A stretch of 64,000 nucleotides of DNA from a virus (IMGVR_UViG_3300044859_001080:21298-85297), one strand, 5' to 3'; shown: positions 1,757 to 58,305, numbered from the stretch's first letter. A program made the numbers and translations. The notes: generated from the letters alone by a model not told the origin.

Positions 1757-3945
1757 TGGCAGCATTTGATTATTTTTTGAGTTTAACAGGCGACTGCACT
1801 AATACAAATTCTGGTGCAATACTTCTTGAATTAAGTGGAGGAACGCCACCTTATAGTATTGAATTTATTAATCCATATATTGATAGTACCCCTTATATAA
1901 CAATAACTGAACCAGTATTAATTACAAGTTTATCAGCAACAACTTATGGGGTTAGAGTGAATGATTCAACTGCTCCAGATAATTTAGAATTTTATTTAAA
2001 TATTCCAATATCTAGTGGAGTTTGTACCTCAATATTGTCAACAATCAATTCAACATGTGGGGATTCAAATGGTTCAGTAACTGGAACAACAACATCTCTA
2101 TTTTCAACAACAGATTGTTATTTATATACTAGTGGAAATACCTTAATATCAAACAATATTTTTAATTCGGAGGAAATTATTTTTGAAAATTTAAGTGCAG
2201 ACACTTATTATATTTATGTTGAAGATATTGGGGGTTGTACAGCAAAAACAGAAAATTTTATAATAAAAAATTCCACATCATTTGATTATGGTTATTTTAT
2301 TGTTAAAAATTCACCTTGCTTTACTGGATCAACAGGTGCAATATACATAACAGGTCAAACAAATCCTGGGCCTTATAGTTATTTTTGGAACAATGGAGCA
2401 ACTGGGAATACAATCACAAATTTACCCACAGATTCTTATTCTGTTAGTGTTACAGATGGTCAAGGCTGTGTTAACACCAAAATAATTATAGTTGAAGAGG
2501 CAGAATCTATGGGATTATTACAGATAATTCCCACACAACCATCATGCTTTACTGCAACAGGTTCTTTAGACGTTACCATTAGTGGAGGTACTGCGCCATA
2601 TTATTTTTCAGCAAGTACAGGATTTTATGATATAACATATAGTAATAACATTGTGATTACTGGATTAACATCTGGTACTTATGACATAAGGGTTATAGAT
2701 GGTGCATTATGTTCACTTGATATTACAACAAGTTTAGTTAGTGAAAATTCTGTTTCAAGCGTTGAATTTATTGGAACAAATTCATTATGTGGCTCATCTA
2801 ATGGGATTATATCAATTAATATATTGGGGGGAACTGGACCATATACTTATGGGTTAATTCAACCAAGTGGGGATACAATAACAAATACCACAACTTCAAC
2901 AAATTATTTATTTACCAATTTAGGAACTGGTACATATACAGTTTATATGCAAGATTCTTCAGGTTGTTACTATGATGAAGAAGTGACAATTATTGCTGAA
3001 GATAAATTTGAATTAAATTATTCATTAACTGGGACAACTTGTAATTCAAACAATGGTACTCTTTTTGCATATATTACAACAGGGGGCACACCCCCATACG
3101 ATTTTTATTTGGATGATGTAAATAGCATTTTAGATACAAATTTAACAGGATATACTTTTACAAATTTAAGAGATGGGAATAAGACTTTAAGAGTTATTGA
3201 TTCAACTGGTTGTGAGCAGATAAAAGTATTAACAATACCCACAAGTAATTATTTGGATTTTTCATTATATCCAACATCATGTGTGAATGGTAATGATGGT
3301 ACAATAACAGCTTTGATAACTGATGGGTTGCCACCTTTTACATACACTTGGTCAAGTAATGTATCTGGTAATCCACAATCAATATCAGCAACTGGGTTAA
3401 CTAGTGGTGATTATTCATTAACAATTGTGGATAATAATGGTTGTTCATTAACCAGAGATGTAAGTATAAGTTGTTTTAGTACAGTAAAGTCGTATCAAAC
3501 ATACATTGTTGATTCAAAAGTATTTGGGATAAATTCAATAAATAAATTTGGATTATTAGATTTCTTGAATGAGGGCTTTAGTGATTTGGTGAATATGGAG
3601 TTTAGTGGATCAACCACTATAATCGATCCAAAATGTAATTTAAACTCAGCAATCTTCACAACAGAATATACGTTAGAACCAAGTGGTATCACAAGTGGAA
3701 ATACATTCTACACAGGATATACAAGAACAGATGTTCCAACAGATTCGGTTTATGCAGAATCCATAGTTGATTTGTTGGCTGGTAATACCCTAAAAGGATT
3801 ACTTGGAATCCCAGGAATACAGAGTGTGTCTTATGACTTAATAACAAATACAATAAACATCATAGCAGAACCAGGAGATAGTATAACCTCACAAGTATTA
3901 ACCATAAAATTGAAAATAGATTATGATATATCTTGTAAATTATGA
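1756..3945 (+). CDS. Virion-type protein with tandem SprB-like repeats
   Basis: About 729 residues; the start is the ATG that overlaps the upstream stop, chosen over an earlier TTG. From about residue 10 to 580 it carries six or more repeats of roughly 75-85 residues. They have the SprB-repeat signature: a Cys near the start, an S/G-rich 'SSNGxI' strand, GG(T)xPYxY, then L-x-(S/T/D)-G-x-Y-x-(V/L)-x-V-x-D-x-x-G-C. SprB repeats belong to the gliding adhesin of Flavobacteriia. The last 150 residues differ and may be an assembly domain. It overlaps the next gene by four bases (ATGA). A role as tail-fibre or surface protein is inferred from repeats and context. Confidence 0.7.
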   Translation: MAAFDYFLSLTGDCTNTNSGAILLELSGGTPPYSIEFINPYIDSTPYITITEPVLITSLSATTYGVRVNDSTAPDNLEFYLNIPISSGVCTSILSTINSTCGDSNGSVTGTTTSLFSTTDCYLYTSGNTLISNNIFNSEEIIFENLSADTYYIYVEDIGGCTAKTENFIIKNSTSFDYGYFIVKNSPCFTGSTGAIYITGQTNPGPYSYFWNNGATGNTITNLPTDSYSVSVTDGQGCVNTKIIIVEEAESMGLLQIIPTQPSCFTATGSLDVTISGGTAPYYFSASTGFYDITYSNNIVITGLTSGTYDIRVIDGALCSLDITTSLVSENSVSSVEFIGTNSLCGSSNGIISINILGGTGPYTYGLIQPSGDTITNTTTSTNYLFTNLGTGTYTVYMQDSSGCYYDEEVTIIAEDKFELNYSLTGTTCNSNNGTLFAYITTGGTPPYDFYLDDVNSILDTNLTGYTFTNLRDGNKTLRVIDSTGCEQIKVLTIPTSNYLDFSLYPTSCVNGNDGTITALITDGLPPFTYTWSSNVSGNPQSISATGLTSGDYSLTIVDNNGCSLTRDVSISCFSTVKSYQTYIVDSKVFGINSINKFGLLDFLNEGFSDLVNMEFSGSTTIIDPKCNLNSAIFTTEYTLEPSGITSGNTFYTGYTRTDVPTDSVYAESIVDLLAGNTLKGLLGIPGIQSVSYDLITNTINIIAEPGDSITSQVLTIKLKIDYDISCKL

Positions 3946-4493
3946 CAAACATTATTATTTCAAGTATAAGTGGGGCAACTCCTTTAAATATATATGTATC
4001 TGATGCATTTGGGGGGAATGAAAACTATCTGGGTCAAGTAACAACATTACCTTTGGTGGTTGATATAACATATGAATTACCTATTATATTTAATTCAGCT
4101 CCCCAAGTTACCATTATTATTGAGGATAGTGAAGGATGCAGAACAACAAAGAAATTAAATTGTTATATTAATTGTGATATTGTTTATAGTATAACTGATA
4201 TTACATCAATTACTCCAACTCCAACTCCAACCCCATCTTCAACTCCAGGGTATATTCCAATTGCCTCATCAAATAATAAAATAACATTAACATCTATAAT
4301 AGGAACTCCACCATTTGGTATTTATATATCAGACATAAATAGGAATTATGAAACTTATATTACAACAATAACAAATACTGGAATATTACCACTTACCATT
4401 GATGTCCCCAATAGATTTTCTGGGTCAAATCAAGTTATTGTTACCATAAAAGATATAAATTCTTGTAGTTATTTTAAAATAATAGATTGTTAA
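3942..4493 (+). CDS. Small virion-type protein with Pro-Thr linker
   Basis: 183 residues. Two copies of a roughly 75-residue beta-rich module (first at 1-75, second at 105-183) are joined by a TPTPTPTPSSTP linker. The module pattern is 'SISGATPLNIYVSD ... VTIIIEDSEGC'. The 75-residue protein at 22930 is a stand-alone version of the same module. Start ATG overlaps the upstream TGA. No enzymatic motif is visible; a structural role as fibre or decoration protein is inferred from the neighbours. Confidence 0.55.
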   Translation: MTNIIISSISGATPLNIYVSDAFGGNENYLGQVTTLPLVVDITYELPIIFNSAPQVTIIIEDSEGCRTTKKLNCYINCDIVYSITDITSITPTPTPTPSSTPGYIPIASSNNKITLTSIIGTPPFGIYISDINRNYETYITTITNTGILPLTIDVPNRFSGSNQVIVTIKDINSCSYFKIIDC

Positions 4494-5939
4494 ATGGCAA
4501 CATATAAATTAATTGTAGTAAATATTGATCCAATATGTGAGAATAGCATAGAGAATGAGATAACAGGGGTTACTGCTTGTTCAAGGTATTTCTTACAATT
4601 AAATCCCTCATCTCACTCAAAAGGTCCATTTAATTTTTATATTGATACAATTGATAGTGAGCCAATATATAGCAATATAACAAGAGAGCAATTTTTGGCT
4701 GGAATAACTCTTGAGATTTTATGCACAACCCCAACTCCAACACCATCTATAACACCAACCCCAAGTATAACACCATCTATAACACAGACGCCAACAAAGA
4801 CGCCAACACAGACGCCAACACCATCTGTAACATCAACAAACACTCCAACACCAACAAATACCCCAACAAAGACAAATACTCCAACACCAACCATAACTCC
4901 AACAGTTACCCCAACAACACCGGAAGAGTATGAGGCTTATTTATTTATTGAGCCAGTTAGTATGAATGTGGAGTTCAATTCTTGGATGTCATCTGGTGGT
5001 AGTTTATTTAGGGGATTTTCAAATGGTATTGCTCCATCAATAAGTGCAGCAACATTTAATGACCAGATTAATAGGTATATATCCTTTTCAGGTTGGGGAG
5101 CAAATGCACCACAAGTAAGAACAACAAAGATACGCCAAAATAGTGGTGGATTTGATGAATATGGTAATTTAATTCAAGCTTATTTATTCAAGACGCATGA
5201 AGTTCCAGCATATTTGACAACAGGTTATTCTTGGTATACTTGGGTTATACCAAATATGGACACAAATAGAAATCTTGTTAGCAACATTGGGGTTAATGAA
5301 TATGGGGATTCAACATCATTAGTCCCGGTTAATACAAATTTATTATATGCAGAATTAACGGTAATATATAGTGGCTTCACAATTCCACAAAATTATTATC
5401 ATATATATACAACATTTAGCAATACAAATTTCAGATTAAATAATGATAACAAAATATATTTTAAGGGAAATTCCTTAATACCAGATTTAAATGGTTGCAA
5501 TTGTTTTGATGTTTATTTGGATCCGTCAACCCCATCAGTATTATCTTGTTATGATGTTTGTAGGGAGGTTGCAAATACCAGAATATGTGGAAAAACAACA
5601 ACATTTAATGGTGCAAATGGTCAGAAATATTATATTGATTTTCAATCATGTATAAACAATGACGATAGCAGTTGGAATGGGGCAAAGAATTTTAGCATAA
5701 ACGGATATTGCTATTCAACTGATTCAGTTGGGGTTATTACTGGTTCAACAATATGCCCATCACCAACTCCAACACCAACAAATACATTAACACCAACACC
5801 AACTATAACTATGACTCAAACTAAAACCCCTACCCCAACAAGGACAATTACTCCTACTAACACAAAGACGCCAACAAATACAGCAACTCCTACACCAACA
5901 AACACATTAACTCCAACACCAACTCCTACACCAATTTAA
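4494..5939 (+). CDS. Virion-type protein with two long Pro/Thr linkers
   Basis: 481 residues, starting directly after the previous stop. It has a short N-terminal domain (1-75), a Pro/Thr/Ser linker of about 65 residues (75-140), a globular middle domain (145-420) with several Cys, and a second Pro/Thr run that reaches the very C-terminus. Linkers of this TPTPT type are extended and flexible, and here probably separate fibre domains. The middle domain is not recognised. A protein ending in a 50-residue disordered Pro/Thr tail is unusual and may signal that another chain attaches there. The gene is followed by a hairpin at 5963-5996. Confidence 0.5.
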   Translation: MATYKLIVVNIDPICENSIENEITGVTACSRYFLQLNPSSHSKGPFNFYIDTIDSEPIYSNITREQFLAGITLEILCTTPTPTPSITPTPSITPSITQTPTKTPTQTPTPSVTSTNTPTPTNTPTKTNTPTPTITPTVTPTTPEEYEAYLFIEPVSMNVEFNSWMSSGGSLFRGFSNGIAPSISAATFNDQINRYISFSGWGANAPQVRTTKIRQNSGGFDEYGNLIQAYLFKTHEVPAYLTTGYSWYTWVIPNMDTNRNLVSNIGVNEYGDSTSLVPVNTNLLYAELTVIYSGFTIPQNYYHIYTTFSNTNFRLNNDNKIYFKGNSLIPDLNGCNCFDVYLDPSTPSVLSCYDVCREVANTRICGKTTTFNGANGQKYYIDFQSCINNDDSSWNGAKNFSINGYCYSTDSVGVITGSTICPSPTPTPTNTLTPTPTITMTQTKTPTPTRTITPTNTKTPTNTATPTPTNTLTPTPTPTPI

Positions 5940-50937: not shown

Positions 50938-51540
50938 ATGATAGAAATTATAGAAAAAAATGCAATAATCTATGAAACTAGATTATCAAGAATATGGAAA
51001 CACATTGAGAATGACTCATCGTCTTTTGGAGTTATTTCGCCATTTAGAAAATATTTATCTATGGATGAAAATTTGGAAAGGTATAAAGAGTTAAAATCTT
51101 TCATCAAAGATAAACTTAAAATTGGCTACATTGAAATGGATGGTGGCTTCAAAGAAGAGGGTGATTGGGTAAATGAAAAATCACTTTTTATTCCAAACAT
51201 AAGAAAAGAAGATTTAATTTTTTTGGGAGAATATTATGACCAGTATTCTGTCATCTATAAAAGTAAAAACGAGTTTATTGAAATTGGCACAAATGATATG
51301 TCAGATATGGGTGAAGTTTTAAACAATTTCAAAAAAAGTGGCTGGGATAAAAATATGCAAATAGATAGTGATACAACAGAGGAATTTTTCTCTAAATTAG
51401 CACGTGGCAGTCATAGAGACCAAAAGTTTTTATTTAATATGGAAGAAAGTTTTCTATATGAATTGGATAGTAAAACATTTAATGATAATTATAGAGAAAG
51501 AAACGGTCGTGGAAAAAAACGGTTGATAAAACTACTTTAA
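50938..51540 (+). CDS. Unknown protein, DUF3293-like layout
   Basis: 200 residues. 'SPFRKYLSMDENLERYKELK' then 'EEGDWVNEKSLFIPNI...LGEYYDQYSVIYKSKNEFIEIG' resembles the order of DUF3293 proteins (N-terminal 'EN..R...L', 'W.E.S..v', 'G..fgQ.sv'). The C-terminus is basic (RERNGRGKKRLIKLL). Similarity is weak and judged by eye. It lies between DUF3310 and the Dps-like gene. Confidence 0.45.
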   Translation: MIEIIEKNAIIYETRLSRIWKHIENDSSSFGVISPFRKYLSMDENLERYKELKSFIKDKLKIGYIEMDGGFKEEGDWVNEKSLFIPNIRKEDLIFLGEYYDQYSVIYKSKNEFIEIGTNDMSDMGEVLNNFKKSGWDKNMQIDSDTTEEFFSKLARGSHRDQKFLFNMEESFLYELDSKTFNDNYRERNGRGKKRLIKLL

Positions 51541-51558: not shown

Positions 51559-51927
51559 ATGAATGATGAGATTATATTAGAGTTAGTCAATACACAAGTA
51601 CAATTTAGATTCTTGCATTGGCAAACAAAATCATATGCAAAACATAAAGCATATGGTAAATTTTATGATAATTTAGATGATTTGATTGATAAGTATGTTG
51701 AGGTTTGTATGGGTAAACATGGACGTCCTGAATATGATGGGGGTTTTACAATGGAGTTTGAAGATATAAAGGGTTTCTCAATGCAAGAATATCTGGATGA
51801 TTTCACAGAGTTCTTAATGGGTTTGTCAGAAAAATTAACACAAGGAGAAGATACTGATTTGTTAAATATCAGAGATGAGATTTTGGCAGAAGTAAATAAA
51901 ATGAAATATTTATTAACATTAGAATAA
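51559..51927 (+). CDS. DUF5856/Dps-like four-helix protein
   Basis: 122 residues. 'VQFRFLHWQTKSYAKHKAYG' and 'YDNLDDLIDKYVEVCMGKHG' have the HWQT...H...Y..L....D...E pattern of the DUF5856 family, which resembles Dps/ferritin four-helix bundles with His/Asp/Glu metal ligands. Iron binding or oxidative protection is inferred. Its TAA overlaps an ATG (51927) that opens only a 14-codon frame, unlike the productive TAATG couplings elsewhere in the window. Confidence 0.7.
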   Translation: MNDEIILELVNTQVQFRFLHWQTKSYAKHKAYGKFYDNLDDLIDKYVEVCMGKHGRPEYDGGFTMEFEDIKGFSMQEYLDDFTEFLMGLSEKLTQGEDTDLLNIRDEILAEVNKMKYLLTLE

Positions 51928-51971
51928 TGAGAAGAAATTTAATTAATGAGGGGCTATTGAAAAATGATTAA
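51927..51971 (+). pseudogene. Possible relict 5' end of the DHH gene
   Basis: From the TAATG junction a frame reads MRRNLINEGLLKND and then stops, overlapping the endonuclease start. The intact DHH gene at 52906 begins MRKNNQVLVESGIRDID. The two line up as MR(R/K)N, a gap of three, then L-(I/V)-x-x-G-(L/I)...D. This could be the original 5' end, cut off when the endonuclease gene inserted. Very short, so tentative. Confidence 0.3.
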
Positions 51972-52878
51972 ATCTATTTGGAAGCCAGTTTATTTTAAAT
52001 CTAAAATAATTTATTATGATATGGTTGAAGTTGAAGACTTAACAAATAAAAAAGGGACTACTGCTTATAAAGTAATCTGGGTTTGCGATAATCCAAAATG
52101 TAAAACCCCAAGTAAAATTCATTCAATAAGTGCTCATCATTTAACTAAAGTAAAAAATAATTTTAATATACAAATATGCAGACCTTGCCAGTGTTCTGGT
52201 GAAGGTAATGGTAGATTTGGTGATAATAGAAAATGGAGTGATTTTCATAGTGAAGAAAGAGTTAAAGAATTAAAATTAATCTATTCTGAAAAATGGAAAG
52301 GTATTAAAAACCCCTCTTTAATTGATGATGTCAAAATAAAAAAGAATCAAAGTATAATAAATGAAGTTTTTTTAAAAAAAATAGTAAATAAAAATGGCTT
52401 TAAATTGTTATCATTAGTAGAATTAGATGGTAAAAATAGTAAATTAGTTGTTGAGTGTAAAAATGGGCATATTTCTAATAAAAGATATGTTAATTTTGTT
52501 GCTAAACATAAAAAATTTATATGCAGTAAATGTTTTTATAATTCAATTGCACTTAATTTATCAAAGGAAGATATGTTAATTATTAAAAATTATTATAGGA
52601 TAGTTAGGTCTATGACTAAAAAAACCTATAAACAATATAAAAATATAATTAATCCTAATAATCTTAAAATAAGTTTCAATACTTATCATATTGACCATAA
52701 ATTTAGTGTAGCAGAAGGGTTTAGAAATAATTTACCACCTGAAATTTTGAGTGCCAAGGAAAACTTACAAATACTAACACAACATAACAATTTATCAAAA
52801 CAAGATAAATGTTCAATTACTTTAGATGAATTAATTGAAAAAACAAAGTATATAAATGTGTTAAAAACGCATAACTAA
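51964..52878 (+). CDS. HNH homing endonuclease, free-standing
   Basis: 304 residues. N-terminal zinc-type Cys pairs (WVCDNPKCKTP; ICRPCQC), a NUMOD3-like 'GEGNGRFGDNRKW' segment, a second zinc module (VVECKNGH...FICSKCF) and a C-terminal HNH nuclease 'YHIDHKFSVAEGF' with 'ENLQILTQHNNLSKQDK' (about 238-280). Such genes spread by cutting alleles without the insertion, usually near their own position. This gene is very AT-rich (8 of 60 G+C in 52621-52680 by hand count). It lies 27 bases upstream of the interrupted DHH gene, as mobA lies next to T4 gene 60. Confidence 0.8.
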   Translation: MIKSIWKPVYFKSKIIYYDMVEVEDLTNKKGTTAYKVIWVCDNPKCKTPSKIHSISAHHLTKVKNNFNIQICRPCQCSGEGNGRFGDNRKWSDFHSEERVKELKLIYSEKWKGIKNPSLIDDVKIKKNQSIINEVFLKKIVNKNGFKLLSLVELDGKNSKLVVECKNGHISNKRYVNFVAKHKKFICSKCFYNSIALNLSKEDMLIIKNYYRIVRSMTKKTYKQYKNIINPNNLKISFNTYHIDHKFSVAEGFRNNLPPEILSAKENLQILTQHNNLSKQDKCSITLDELIEKTKYINVLKTHN

Positions 52879-52880
52879 TC

Positions 52881-52888
52881 TATTTATA
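52881..52888 (+). promoter_or_regulatory. TATTTATA box between endonuclease and DHH gene
   Basis: Exact box starting just after the endonuclease stop and 17 bases before the DHH start at 52906. It may have come with the endonuclease cassette and replaced the lost coupling to the upstream gene. Confidence 0.35.
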
Positions 52889-52905
52889 ATAAAAAATAAA
52901 CGACT

Positions 52906-54384
52906 ATGAGAAAAAACAATCAGGTCCTGGTAGAAAGTGGAATTAGAGATATTGATGCTCTTGCGAACCGTTATAATAAAGCGGAGATCTACTTTCACCA
53001 GGACCTCTAAGGGCTTGATGGAGTTGCCTCGGCTTTGGCCATGAAGAAATACTTGGAAGATAATGGCATCAAAGTTGTTGATGCACATATTATCCAATAC
53101 GGAGATACAGAATTTGCTGTAAAGAAGAATGATGCCTTAGGAGACACTATGCCTGTTCTAGTGGATTTTGCTCATGGAAAACCTATGTTTAAAATACACA
53201 CAGACCACCATGATAGTCAGATTGGGGTTGATACCAAGAAAACATCTGGGCAATTTAAAAAAGCCAGATCGAATGCAGAAACAATTTCACAAGTTATTTC
53301 AAAAAATGATTTGTTTAGTGATACTGATATTTTAATTATAAATACAGTTGACTCTGCTGACTTTGTTAGACAAGGTTTAACTACAGATGATGTTATTAAT
53401 TATTTATTCAAATTTGACAAATCAAAAAGTGTTAGAGAGAATAAATTATTAATGGGTTTAGTTGCAAATAAATTACTATTGGCTTTTAAAAACAAGAAAG
53501 GATTTCTTGAAAATTTGGTTATGAATTCAAAACCTTCCATTTTATCAATATTGAATAATATAAAGAAATGGATGAAAGAAAATACTACTGAACTCCCAGA
53601 AGATTTACAAGCAAATGCTGAAAAGTATATTGAAAGTATGAAGGGTCATAAGAATGTTGAATTTAAAGATGGTATTATTTACCAATATGGTATGGGTTCT
53701 TTAAAGGGAACAGGTTCATACGATAGATATACATCATTTAAAAACCAACCTGATGCTGATTTCTTAATTATATACTGGCCACTAGGATTAATTCAAGTTT
53801 CAAAAAATCCATTTAAACCAAACCCCAAGTATAGCAAATTACATTTAGGTGAATTGGCACAAAAAGTTATGGGGCAATTTAAACCTATGTTAGAAGATAA
53901 ATTAATTTTATTATCAACAATTAAATGGGTTAGTGAATCAAAAGCAACAGAAGAAAGTGTTGGTTTTACCTTTAATGATTTTTATGCCACTTATGGTGAT
54001 AAATATTATACAAAAGAAGGTGCTCCAAAAACAAATGAGGAATTAAAGGGAATTATGGATAAGTTGTTTGGTGAATTAACTGAAGAGGAGAAAAAGAAAT
54101 TAGATAGTATTGCACTAAATGCTTGGGATTTAATTCAAGCAAATAGTGGGGGTCATCCAAGTATTACAAATATTTCTGGACTTAACTTTATTGGTAGGGG
54201 TAGCAGACCACCATCAAAAGAACCAAGAACGTATGCACCAAAATCAACTGAACCAAGAACATATGCACCAAAAACAAGCACCTACAAATCAGAGCCAAGA
54301 ACTGAAACTCAATATCTGACATTAATGAAAGATATTGCAAGTAAAATAAAAACCAAATTAGAGAAGGAGATTTCTAGTTATTAA
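52906..54384 (+). CDS. DHH-family phosphoesterase requiring translational recoding across an in-frame TAA
   Basis: Frame opens at ATG 52906 (MRKNNQVLVESG...NKAEIYFHQDL), meets TAA at 53008, and continues in the same frame as GGG CTT GAT GGA (GLDGVASALAMKKYLEDNGI). DHH enzymes need motif I H-x-D-x-D-G, a motif II Asp (VLVDFA), motif III DHH (HTDHHDSQIG) and a motif IV Asp (NTVDSADF). Motifs II-IV are intact after the stop; motif I is split. Skipping 53008-53016, from Leu codon CTC to Leu codon CTT, gives HQDLDGVASA and a 489-residue protein. Readthrough would give HQDL-x-GLDG, with three extra residues in the active site. Starting after the stop loses motif I. A C-terminal tail has two PRTYAPK repeats. 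Substrate probably a nucleotide or DNA/RNA end. Confidence 0.8.
52922..53006 (+). promoter_or_regulatory. Inverted repeat ending at the putative take-off codon
   Basis: AGGTCCTGGTAGAAAGT (52922-52938) pairs with ACTTTCACCAGGACCT (52991-53006) with one bulged A. The right arm ends at the second base of the CTC codon that precedes the TAA. The apical part is 52 bases. An mRNA structure at this place could pause or reposition the ribosome. Confidence 0.6.
53008..53016 (+). other. Nine-base coding gap (TAA GGG CTT), candidate bypass site
   Basis: The codons read CTC TAA GGG CTT GAT. Take-off CTC (53005-53007) and landing CTT (53014-53016) could both pair with the same tRNA-Leu. Removal of the nine bases exactly restores the DHH motif I. 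Purine-rich AAGGG directly before the landing codon may help placement. Confidence 0.6.
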
Positions 54385-55950: not shown

Positions 55951-56883
55951 GTGAAACGAATTTTAATCACAGAAAGTCAATTAAGCCTATTAGTAAAAAG
56001 TGATAATACTGCACATGATACTGCACATGATACTGCACATGATACCATACAAGAATGCACGATAGCCGCTGTTAGACTAGACAATGGTAATGTCATTGCC
56101 AAGAATAGAGACAGAGGCTATCTTGCTAAAATGGAGGTTGTTCACGAGATTGTGGAGGGGGTTGAAATGGTGTATTGGAGGGATGTTGAGACAGACTGGT
56201 CTGAAGGTATGAACGAATACGGTATTGGAATTGTTAATTCAAGTCTGTTGGTTAGACAAGATGAGAAAGAGAGCAACAAAGTATTCAAATCCAAAAAAGT
56301 AAAAAATTCAAATGATGGAAAAAAGATTAGGCATGCTTTAAAATGTAAGAACATAAAGGATGCTATTAAATCTGTTATTTCCTATGATGCTGATGATCCA
56401 AAAAATGTTGGAATTAAAGGTCAGACAATTGTTGGTAGTCCAAAGAATATATATATTGTTGAATTAACAAGCAAAGATACTCCTGTTATTACAAAAATGG
56501 GAGATGAGAAAGTTGAGGTTAGAACCAATCATGGTATTGCTCACAAAAAAACTGGATACATTTACGGAATTAAAAAGAAATCGTCCCACTCTAGGTTAGA
56601 GTTGGCAAAAAAGCATTTACAAGATGCTGAAGAAGATATTGATGTTATTGATAAGATGAAGGAGCAATATAAGAAAAACAAATTCTTAAATCCTTATCGA
56701 ATGAAGAATATGTATAACATGCAAACTGTTGGACAAATAATGATGAATTTGGACAAAAAAGAAATTTTAATAAGAATGGATAATGAGATGGGGGAATTTG
56801 TTGGCATAGATAATAAGTTGCCAGATGATTATTCGCCCAAAATAAAAATAAGAATTGAGAGTGAGAAAACAAAGGGTAAATAA
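55951..56883 (+). CDS. Ntn-hydrolase-like protein (C45/linear amide hydrolase type)
   Basis: 310 residues from GTG. The start 'MKRILITESQLSLLV' is a common T4-like phage lead. It is followed by three exact AHDT repeats and then 'CTIAAVRLDNGNVIAKNRDR' with Cys36 as the potential nucleophile exposed after self-cleavage. 'WSEGMNEYGIGIVNSSLL' and 'RTNHGIAH' (a likely Asn/His pair) fit C45-type amidohydrolases. Residues 215-310 are a helical extension. Autocleavage before Cys36 would remove the repeat leader. Substrate unknown; an acyl-homoserine or peptidyl amide is only a guess. Confidence 0.6.
   Translation: MKRILITESQLSLLVKSDNTAHDTAHDTAHDTIQECTIAAVRLDNGNVIAKNRDRGYLAKMEVVHEIVEGVEMVYWRDVETDWSEGMNEYGIGIVNSSLLVRQDEKESNKVFKSKKVKNSNDGKKIRHALKCKNIKDAIKSVISYDADDPKNVGIKGQTIVGSPKNIYIVELTSKDTPVITKMGDEKVEVRTNHGIAHKKTGYIYGIKKKSSHSRLELAKKHLQDAEEDIDVIDKMKEQYKKNKFLNPYRMKNMYNMQTVGQIMMNLDKKEILIRMDNEMGEFVGIDNKLPDDYSPKIKIRIESEKTKGK
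56008..56043 (+). repeat. Three exact tandem copies of a 12-base unit
   Basis: ACTGCACATGAT occurs at 56008-56019, 56020-56031 and 56032-56043, then decays. It encodes T-A-H-D repeats in the leader of the Ntn-hydrolase-like protein. It preserves frame and could vary in copy number. Confidence 0.85.
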
Positions 56884-57353
56884 TGGAAAAAGACACAATA
56901 AGAAGCATATTCAAATTCCTTGAAAATGAGGATAATAGAAGCACACCAATTGTCTGGAAATTAATTAATAATGAACCATTAACAGATGATGAATTAAATA
57001 TTGAAGGCAATTTGAATTTGACTGATTCAAAAATAACACAATTACCAAAAGGTTTGAAAGTTGGAGATAATTTGAATTTATTAGGAACAATAATAACCTC
57101 CTTACCAGAAGGTTTGGAAGTTGGGGCTACTTTGGATTTATCATATTCAGATATAAGAACATTACCAGAAGGTTTGGAAGTTGGGGGTAGTTTATGGTTA
57201 ATTGGGTGTTGGCTTATAACCTCATTACCAAAAGGATTACATGTTGGTGGTGATTTATATATTTTCAGAACTAATTTTAGAAACTTATCAAATGATGAAA
57301 TAAGAGATATGATTAAACCTGGATTTATAGGGGGAGGAATATATAGAACATGA
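56883..57353 (+). CDS. Leucine-rich-repeat protein, array member 1
   Basis: 156 residues. An N-terminal helical cap (1-40; FKFLENEDNR...VWKLINNEPLTDDEL) precedes about five 20-22-residue LRR-like units of the form L-P-x-G-L-x-V-G-x-x-L-x-L-x-x-(T/S)-x-I-x-(S/T). A C-terminal tag 'DEIRDMIKPGFIGG' follows. It starts in TAATG overlap with the hydrolase gene, opening a seven-gene array. LRR solenoids bind proteins; the target is unknown. Confidence 0.7.
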   Translation: MEKDTIRSIFKFLENEDNRSTPIVWKLINNEPLTDDELNIEGNLNLTDSKITQLPKGLKVGDNLNLLGTIITSLPEGLEVGATLDLSYSDIRTLPEGLEVGGSLWLIGCWLITSLPKGLHVGGDLYIFRTNFRNLSNDEIRDMIKPGFIGGGIYRT

Positions 57354-57823
57354 TAAAAGAAACAATAAGAAACATATTCAAATTCCTTGAAAATGAGGAG
57401 AATAGAAAGACACCAATTGTCTGGAAGATAGTGAATAATGAGCCTATTGAACAAGATGATTTAATTGTTAATGGTGATATAAATATGGAATATTCAGACG
57501 TAGAATCATTGCCAGAAGGACTGTATGTTAATGGTGATTTGAGTTTATTTGGGTCTGAAATAAAATCATTACCAAAAGATTTATATGTTAGCGAAAACTT
57601 ATATTTAGGTTATTGTGATAATATAACTTCCTTGCCAGAAGGATTGGAAGTTGGGGGTAGTTTATGGTTAATTGAGAGTTGGGGTTTAAAATCATTACCA
57701 AAAGGATTACATGTTGGTGGTAATTTATATATTTTCAAAACTAATTTTACAAAATTTTCAGATGATGAAATAAGAGATATGATTAAACCTGGATTTATAG
57801 GGGGAAAAATATATAGAACATGA
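57350..57823 (+). CDS. Leucine-rich-repeat protein, array member 2
   Basis: 157 residues. Same cap and C-terminal tag as member 1. The central block from 'YSDVESLPEGLYVNGDLSLF' to 'SENLYLGYCDNITSLPEGL' is nearly identical in DNA to member 3 (offset 470 bases), while its last repeats match member 1. This patchwork indicates recent duplication and conversion. It overlaps both neighbours by four bases (ATGA). Confidence 0.7.
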   Translation: MIKETIRNIFKFLENEENRKTPIVWKIVNNEPIEQDDLIVNGDINMEYSDVESLPEGLYVNGDLSLFGSEIKSLPKDLYVSENLYLGYCDNITSLPEGLEVGGSLWLIESWGLKSLPKGLHVGGNLYIFKTNFTKFSDDEIRDMIKPGFIGGKIYRT

Positions 57824-58305
57824 TAAAAGACACATTAAGAAGCATATTCAAATTCCTTGAAAAGGAGGAAAATAGAAGCACACCAATTTTCTGGAAGATA
57901 TTGAATAATGAACCTATTGAACAAGATGATTTAATTGTTAATGGTGATATAAATATGGAATATTCAGACGTAGAATCATTGCCAGAAGGACTGTATGTTA
58001 ATGGTGATTTGAGTTTATTTGGGTCTGAAATAAAATCATTACCAAAAGATTTATATGTTAGCGAAAACTTATATTTAGGTTATTGTGATAATATAACTTC
58101 CTTGCCAGAAGGATTATATGTTGGGGGAAACTTATCCATAGCAAAAACAAATATAAGTTCCTTACCAAAAGGATTAAAAGTTGAGGGTTTTTTGTTTATT
58201 CGTTATACGCCTTTAGTTAATTTCTCTTATGAAGAATTGATAAAAATGATTAAACCAACAGATGATGTTGATGGGTATATTGGTAGAAAAATAATAATAG
58301 ACTAA
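57820..58305 (+). CDS. Leucine-rich-repeat protein, array member 3
   Basis: 161 residues. The first 90 residues are nearly the same as member 2; the C-terminal part differs (NISSLPKGLKVEGFLFI; then FSYEELIKMIKPTDD) and ends in a non-standard tag. The stop overlaps the next start (TAATG). Confidence 0.7.
   Translation: MIKDTLRSIFKFLEKEENRSTPIFWKILNNEPIEQDDLIVNGDINMEYSDVESLPEGLYVNGDLSLFGSEIKSLPKDLYVSENLYLGYCDNITSLPEGLYVGGNLSIAKTNISSLPKGLKVEGFLFIRYTPLVNFSYEELIKMIKPTDDVDGYIGRKIIID

Follow-up and report, generated by a model that had tools for sequence, protein, structure and literature searches.

The window analyzed here, a 64,000-nucleotide stretch of DNA, comes from a virus record of 85,297 bases. 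It holds a gene for a DHH phosphoesterase whose reading frame is interrupted by a stop codon and, directly upstream, a gene for a probable HNH endonuclease. The features of the locus, in window coordinates, are as follows.

51559–51927, + strand: upstream neighbor, 122 aa, DUF5856 (Pfam PF19174, E = 9e-21), the left flank of the insertion; 82–100% identical to the empty-site allele L002
51927–51953, + strand: leftover of the original DHH 5′ end (ATGAGAAGAAATTTAATTAATGAGGGG), upstream of the inserted HNH gene; 27 of 27 nt equal the first nine codons of the uninterrupted L002 DHH gene (2887–2913)
51964–52878, + strand: HNH-motif endonuclease gene, 304 aa with CxxC zinc-finger-like pairs, a probable free-standing homing endonuclease (motif; PHROG 5104, E = 3e-11)
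52891–53220, + strand: imported (co-converted) tract beside the HNH gene, L004-like in an L002-like backbone (sliding identity)
52906–53007, + strand: DHH ORF1, the first 34 codons, ending in HQDL, with a new start from the cassette; 1 synonymous difference in 18.5 sites relative to L004
52922–52941, + strand: 5′ arm of a 19-bp closing stem with a bulged A at 52932; 20 of 21 distinct carrier stems retain it, as do L210, L215 and L282 with a larger number of mismatches
52945–52961, + strand: inner hairpin 1 of a predicted three-way junction (fold); position differs among alleles
52968–52984, + strand: inner hairpin 2 of the predicted three-way junction (fold); position differs among alleles
52988–53006, + strand: 3′ arm of the closing stem (fold, alignment)
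53005–53007, + strand: putative take-off codon CTC (Leu) (sequence)
53008–53013, + strand: coding gap TAA GGG (stop plus 3 nt); 3, 5, 6 or 8 nt in other alleles
53014–53016, + strand: putative landing codon CTT (Leu), immediately 5′ of the Asp-Gly of motif I (sequence)
53017–54384, + strand: remainder of the DHH phosphoesterase gene (ORF2), motifs II–IV intact; dN/dS 0.085–0.10; fold matches RecJ, DhhP and PAP phosphatase

ORF1 reads MRKNNQVLVESGIRDIDALANRYNKAEIYFHQDL and is closed by the TAA at 53008, which falls inside motif I of the DHH gene; the local codons are CTC (53005) TAA (53008) GGG CTT (53014) GAT. After this TAA the frame is unchanged and continues as G-LDGVASALAMKKYL... to a stop at 54384. 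An earlier reading of this DNA from the sequence alone had described an ATG at 52906, the TAA in motif I and a same-frame continuation with motifs II–IV, all of which were present, and had proposed that CTC TAA GGG CTT GAT allows a hop from Leu to Leu that restores HQDLDG, for which the sequence is as claimed. Without TAA GGG CTT (or CTC TAA GGG), the encoded peptide is YFHQDLDGVASA.

The motifs HxDxDG, VDxxHG, DHH and VDSA are all found in the DHH protein of the window. The protein had no Pfam match; Foldseek searches with a model of modest confidence (pLDDT 62) returned RecJ, DhhP, PAP phosphatase and RecJ/Cdc45, and these matches agree with one another. The motifs and the modeled fold indicate that the gene product is a DHH phosphoesterase. 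No DHH relatives were found in the bacterial genomes searched. One homologue, from a huge phage (L051, LR745206.1, DHH gene at 2968–4959), gave a similarity match in two pieces; it was rejected as an interrupted DHH gene, since its ORF runs without a break and contains an inserted domain, very roughly 100 aa long.

The HNH gene ends 27 nt before the ATG of the DHH gene, as the sequence-only reading had stated. Its motif, YHIDHK...N...N..K, is invariant across 17 relatives, and the protein weakly resembles proteins of T-even phages, one of which is annotated as an HNH endonuclease. There was no match in Pfam or NCBIfam, and searches against solved structures and by fold (Foldseek) were empty or returned no significant match. 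We consider the HNH label of the 304-aa protein probable on two grounds, the motif and the match to PHROG 5104.

Gapped and gap-free alleles in related viruses

A search with the downstream part of the DHH gene recovered 36 viral loci. The sequence of L001, from another sample, is identical to the window, gap included; in L004–L006, from three samples and with 84% protein identity, CTC TGA GGG CTT is the gap of the window with TGA instead of TAA. These independent contigs and the TAA/TGA swap rule out an assembly error. An uninterrupted HxDLDG without extra bases was present in 109 of 109 readable gap-free homologues from the first and second homologue searches, bearing out the earlier expectation that relatives would lack the nine bases.

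When IYFHQDL with a stop (or TGG) immediately behind it was used as a scan pattern, 45 loci matched, and 43 of these, L001 and L004–L006 included, were the DHH gene. By design the pattern scans catch only a stop directly after Leu; their criteria made no use of the hairpin, the HNH gene or the landing site. The scan carriers and the window together make 44 carriers with 24 distinct 5′ alleles. Three divergent carriers were obtained by other routes, L210 and L215 by an HNH search and hairpin scan and L282 by a second pattern. In total, 46 viral contigs besides the window have the gap arrangement, with about 27 distinct alleles; many carriers are near-copies, so contig counts do not equal event counts. 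A tree built from the DHH body requires 8 changes of the gap label, at least 5 of them on well-supported branches. A heuristic scan of the collected loci for other sites combining hairpin, stop and hop returned only the DHH family, plus three chance-looking matches.

The scans required a stop at the gap, and TAA, TGA and TAG are all used by carriers. The 3-nt gaps take the forms CTT TGA CTT, CTG TGA CTT, CTT TGA CTG, CTT TAG CTT and CTT TAA CTT, the 5-nt gaps CTT TGACG CTA/CTG, the 6-nt gaps CTC TAAGGG/TGAGGG CTT, and the 8-nt gaps CTT TGAGGGAA CTT and CTT TGACGGGT CTT. The divergent carriers read CTT TGACGATG CTT (L210, HIDL), CTT TAA CTT (L215, HMDL) and CTT TGA CTT (L282, HMDL). Gaps of 3 and 6 nt keep the downstream part in phase, whereas those of 5 and 8 nt (L152–L156, L164, L177, L180 and L210) shift it out of frame. 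In every allele the landing site is the Leu codon before Asp-Gly, restoring HxDLDG (HxDxDG motif), and both take-off and landing are CUN Leu codons. The two codons are identical in 15 of 24 alleles and differ at the third base in the others, some of which have CUC/CUU, CUG/CUU, CUU/CUG or CUU/CUA.

The stop stands in the context UGAC in 15 of 24 alleles, mostly as CUU UGA C. UGAC is a weak terminator context, and CUU UGA C is the +1 frameshift site of prfB (RF2), which these alleles resemble in having a Leu codon followed by UGA C. Unlike in prfB, a +1 shift restores the motif in no DHH gap class; the same holds for a −1 shift, and a single frameshift was rejected. An intron or intein was also rejected, the gap being too small.

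If the stop were instead decoded by readthrough, motif I would gain two or three residues (HQDL-X-LDG or HQDL-X-G-LDG). The 3- and 6-nt classes, which continue in phase, would permit this, but the 5- and 8-nt alleles are out of phase and yet have the same hairpin at the same position; in these alleles readthrough is excluded because the gaps are out of frame. The extra residues would also break the HxDxDG spacing, which is strict in the gap-free homologues, and one suppressor tRNA would not account for the use of three stop codons. We therefore regard readthrough as highly improbable. An alternative genetic code or suppressor tRNA was rejected as well, since all three stops occur at the site and the genes nearby terminate as expected under the standard code. 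The virus record of the window yielded no tRNA; the records of relatives contain tRNA-Leu(UAG) and other tRNAs, and no tRNA-Leu(GAG) was seen in them.

Another reading is that ORF2 is translated separately, by reinitiation or from an internal start, and that two fragments form the enzyme like gp39/gp60 in T4. T4 provides the precedent of a gene split by mobA, and most alleles have an in-frame Met about 10 codons past the landing site. This candidate Met, however, is Ile or Val in L157, L174, L178 and L183, and internal initiation was rejected because the residue is not conserved. A fragment starting there would lack the second Asp of motif I, and a split gene would not require a gap fixed at the motif-restoring codon. 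It is very unlikely that the gene is split in this way.

The sequence after the gap was examined for selection. The dN/dS ratio was 0.10 between the window and L004 and 0.085 between the window and L002. Among diverged out-of-frame alleles with 8-nt gaps, all without a close HNH gene directly upstream, it was 0.13–0.22, and for a 5-nt pair 0.074, in both cases at dS above 1.1; the values for L158/L168 and L151/L157 were 0.04–0.06. Overall, most carrier pairs fell between 0.04 and 0.22 with dS around or above 1, and the most diverged reached 0.42. These ratios indicate purifying selection on the DHH gene beyond the gap, out-of-frame alleles included.

The hairpin upstream of the gap

The inverted repeat noted earlier, 52922–52938 with 52991–53006, is real but slightly longer, with 52922–52941 pairing with 52988–53006 in 19 pairs. 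The predicted structure, with one bulged A and two inner hairpins, has a dG of −35 kcal/mol (z = −5.4), and none of 200 shuffles was as stable. Its 3′ arm terminates inside the take-off codon in the window and in carriers always ends within a few nt of that codon. The RNA 3′ of the stop folds weakly (z = −2.35).

The 28 codons up to the take-off codon are equal in length across carriers, which gives a gap-free alignment. The aligned carriers share 17 common pairs in the closing stem, and 99.1% of cells are paired. Ten cells are double changes, at columns 13/81 (GC to AU in 7 alleles, a Val to Ile codon together with CAC to CAT) and 7/87 (GC to AU in 3); once L210, L215 and L282 are included, double changes occur at four pairs. 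All 500 shuffles fell short of the observed pairing percentage, number of double changes and covariation score, and in slid versions pairing was only 33–47%. Of the 17 pairs, 15–17 form in 20 of 21 distinct carriers, compared with 6–12 (mode 8) in 62 distinct gap-free alleles; a single gap-free allele folds not clearly better than shuffles. The sequence and exact position of the inner hairpins vary among alleles.

Between the window and L004, the single synonymous difference in ORF1 stands against 0.35–0.56 synonymous differences per site after the gap. Nucleotide differences number 4 of 129 over the ORF1 segment compared with 17 of 132 in the following stretch (p = 0.005). The low divergence before the gap fits an extra constraint on the RNA, and recombination could contribute.

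The inverted repeat could conceivably belong to the homing site, so that the hairpin would be a DNA element for endonuclease recognition, or it could be a regulatory leader (an attenuator or an mRNA stability element), in either case unrelated to the gap. Carriers without a close upstream HNH gene (L152, L153, L159 and L164) nevertheless retain the stem through compensatory changes. The stem is moreover confined to gapped alleles, with its 3′ arm always near the take-off codon, and we regard this explanation as very unlikely.

The hairpin measures 17–19 bp in every carrier except L161 and its four copies (L169, L179, L188 and L190). In these five contigs, which have a TGA gap, the stem is lost (12 of 17 pairs, about −10 kcal/mol) and a second in-frame nonsense codon lies downstream (SHSR*NVKT). 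Their DHH gene is probably a dead allele, and the group is a natural negative control. They also lend some substance to the view that the cassette inactivated the DHH gene in general and that decay is still to come. Against that view stand the low dN/dS of most carrier pairs at high dS, the maintenance of the hairpin through compensatory changes and the survival of exactly placed gaps in lineages without the endonuclease; as an account of the family it has very little probability. The sequence-only reading had kept assembly error, a truncated allele and readthrough as alternatives, and the independent alleles, the dN/dS values and the out-of-frame gaps of 5 and 8 nt contradict them.

The HNH gene and the mobile cassette

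In L002, where the site is empty, the DHH gene starts straight after the 122-aa gene. The order in the window is 27 nt of the old DHH start, the HNH gene and the new DHH start. The two sequences are about 92–100% identical in most flanking bins and differ by the whole cassette of HNH gene, hairpin and gap. By sliding identity, 52891–53220 is about 88–98% identical to L004 and 66–85% to L002, which marks it as a co-conversion tract. Likewise, L182 (HNH gene and gap) and L129 (neither) are about 92–94% identical on both sides, and the break extends only across the HNH gene and the DHH start. These comparisons, with the repeated changes of the gap label on the tree, show that the cassette is mobile, entering the DHH gene at its 5′ end and supplying a new start.

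Of 44 carriers, 18 have a close HNH gene no more than 50 nt upstream, as do half of the distinct carrier alleles (12/24) but none of 62 distinct gap-free alleles (p = 2e-8). Together with the two near-identical occupied/empty pairs and the purifying selection after the stop, this association makes the proposed link between a bypass and an HNH gene largely right. Remnants of the HNH 3′ end persist in the HNH-less carriers L168 and L170, and several lineages have lost the HNH gene and kept the gap. In L012–L015, an HNH gene of about 31% identity sits at the same place beside a DHH gene without a gap. Because these HNH relatives sit there without a gap, the gap would not be the sole route to immunity.

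More distant HNH relatives lie near gap-free DHH genes in L012–L015, L204, L205, L208, L220, L224, L225, L228 and L230. Motif I is altered in some of the gap-free DHH genes near distant HNH genes (HQDSDG, HKDGDG, VTHQDLDG), perhaps as another escape from cutting. In L203 (270–420), a close HNH relative is followed by a DHH gene with VLVESGIRDINS that lacks an in-frame motif I and the gap and jumps to TAIAMKEYLE, either a natural deletion or an assembly collapse across the hairpin. L170 and L162, in which the HNH gene is absent, have LAGLIDADG-like homing endonuclease ORFs within 3 kb upstream of the gapped DHH gene, which suggests an endonuclease hotspot.

A proposed stop-hop and its relation to known systems

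We consider it very likely that the HNH gene, the RNA hairpin and the short coding gap form a homing cassette and that the DHH product is made by programmed ribosomal bypassing, here called a stop-hop. The comparison of alleles establishes the position of the gap, the stop, the matched Leu codons, the hairpin, the selection and the mobility; we infer the ribosomal hop itself from these sequences. We further propose, with good though somewhat lower confidence, that the alleles make up a natural stop-hop family, the first such, which works in and out of frame with a portable three-way-junction hairpin. It would have arisen in active-site codons as the component of an HNH homing cassette that confers immunity, and would become a fixed recoding element after endonuclease loss.

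In the proposed mechanism, the ribosome would translate to HxDL and stall at the stop, mostly in the weak UGAC context. The inner hairpins would fold behind the ribosome and the closing stem would zip after them, drawing the mRNA backwards. Peptidyl-tRNA-Leu would release its codon and, 6, 8, 9 or 11 nt further on, re-pair with the landing Leu codon; this forward movement of 6–11 nt would give the stem room to close behind the ribosome. Translation would then resume, giving an intact DHH active site. The bypass efficiency could be low because a gap of 3–8 nt leaves no room for an A-site hairpin and there is no clear nascent-peptide signal. No clear signal of the kind seen in T4 (KKYK) was identified in carriers; in most, K/R/N-rich basic residues stand about 30 aa ahead of take-off, and gap-free homologues also begin basic. 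At the DNA level, the gap would disrupt the recognition site of the endonuclease and render carriers immune, with the bypass canceling the cost of the interruption; such immunity would be expected by analogy with T4 and from the association of HNH gene and gap. The gap and hairpin would persist after endonuclease loss because exact removal is rare.

To our knowledge, mobA/gene 60 of T4 is the sole known case of a linked endonuclease and bypass, and our literature search found no other such case and no report of a DHH stop-hop system. The T4 gene 60 bypass spans a 50-nt gap between Gly (GGA) codons in a topoisomerase target (PMC5009743, PMC3014915; kinetics in PMC11194080). The DHH system shares with it an HNH-type endonuclease gene upstream of the bypassed gene, a stop immediately after the take-off codon that opens the gap, codon-matched landing, a 5′ stem-loop upstream of take-off, described as a 'motor' (PMC5009743, PMC11194080), and related phages lacking both gap and endonuclease. 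It differs from T4 in that the gap has 3–8 nt and no in-gap hairpin, the codons are Leu (CUN), the interrupted site is a DHH phosphoesterase active site, there are many divergent alleles and not one, and the target gets a new start and remains one gene, not split in two polypeptides. The sequence-only reading had contrasted its HNH enzyme with MobA; this contrast falls, since T4 MobA is itself an HNH enzyme, apparently defective. The HNH protein of the window has no detectable similarity to the T4 mobA remnant or 60.1. The DHH system appears to resemble gene 60 in its working yet is not the same element.

Synthetic stop-hops in E. coli have matched codons around a stop, with 9 nt giving one amino acid (PMC5009743). 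The 3-nt class (CTT TGA CTT etc.) has exactly that layout, at Leu codons; the DHH version differs in being natural, conserved and provided with a dedicated hairpin. For natural in-frame stop hopping, a 2016 review stated that 'no occurences are known' (PMC5009743). The passage of that review on the mitochondrial byps of Magnusiomyces capitatus gives 81 sites in many genes, apparently context-independent. As described there, byps resemble the DHH gaps in being short inserts over which the ribosome skips, a gene thereby tolerating insertions that would otherwise inactivate it; in contrast, they use mitochondrial ribosomes, and that passage describes no linked endonuclease.

The evidence for efficient bypassing in phages has so far come mainly from one gene, T4 gene 60, and the tie between bypass and homing endonuclease previously only from phage T4; the carriers are a group of large uncultured phages. 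If the proposal is true, about 27 natural alleles with gaps of 3, 5, 6 and 8 nt, varied stops and matched or mismatched codons would make the rules of bypassing comparable, and a covarying hairpin with a naturally broken version would add to comparative tests. The coupling of a homing endonuclease to a coding gap would then be a recurrent strategy, and gene callers and pseudogene filters would likely misread such genes.

Two further regions of the window lie on either side of the locus. Upstream, 50938–51540 encodes a 200-aa DUF3293 protein with a sub-threshold match to an S-adenosylmethionine lyase family (PF23780, E = 2.7e-5), possibly an anti-restriction enzyme. Downstream, three paralogues of about 160 aa lie in tandem at 56883–58305 and have LPxGL leucine-rich-like repeats.
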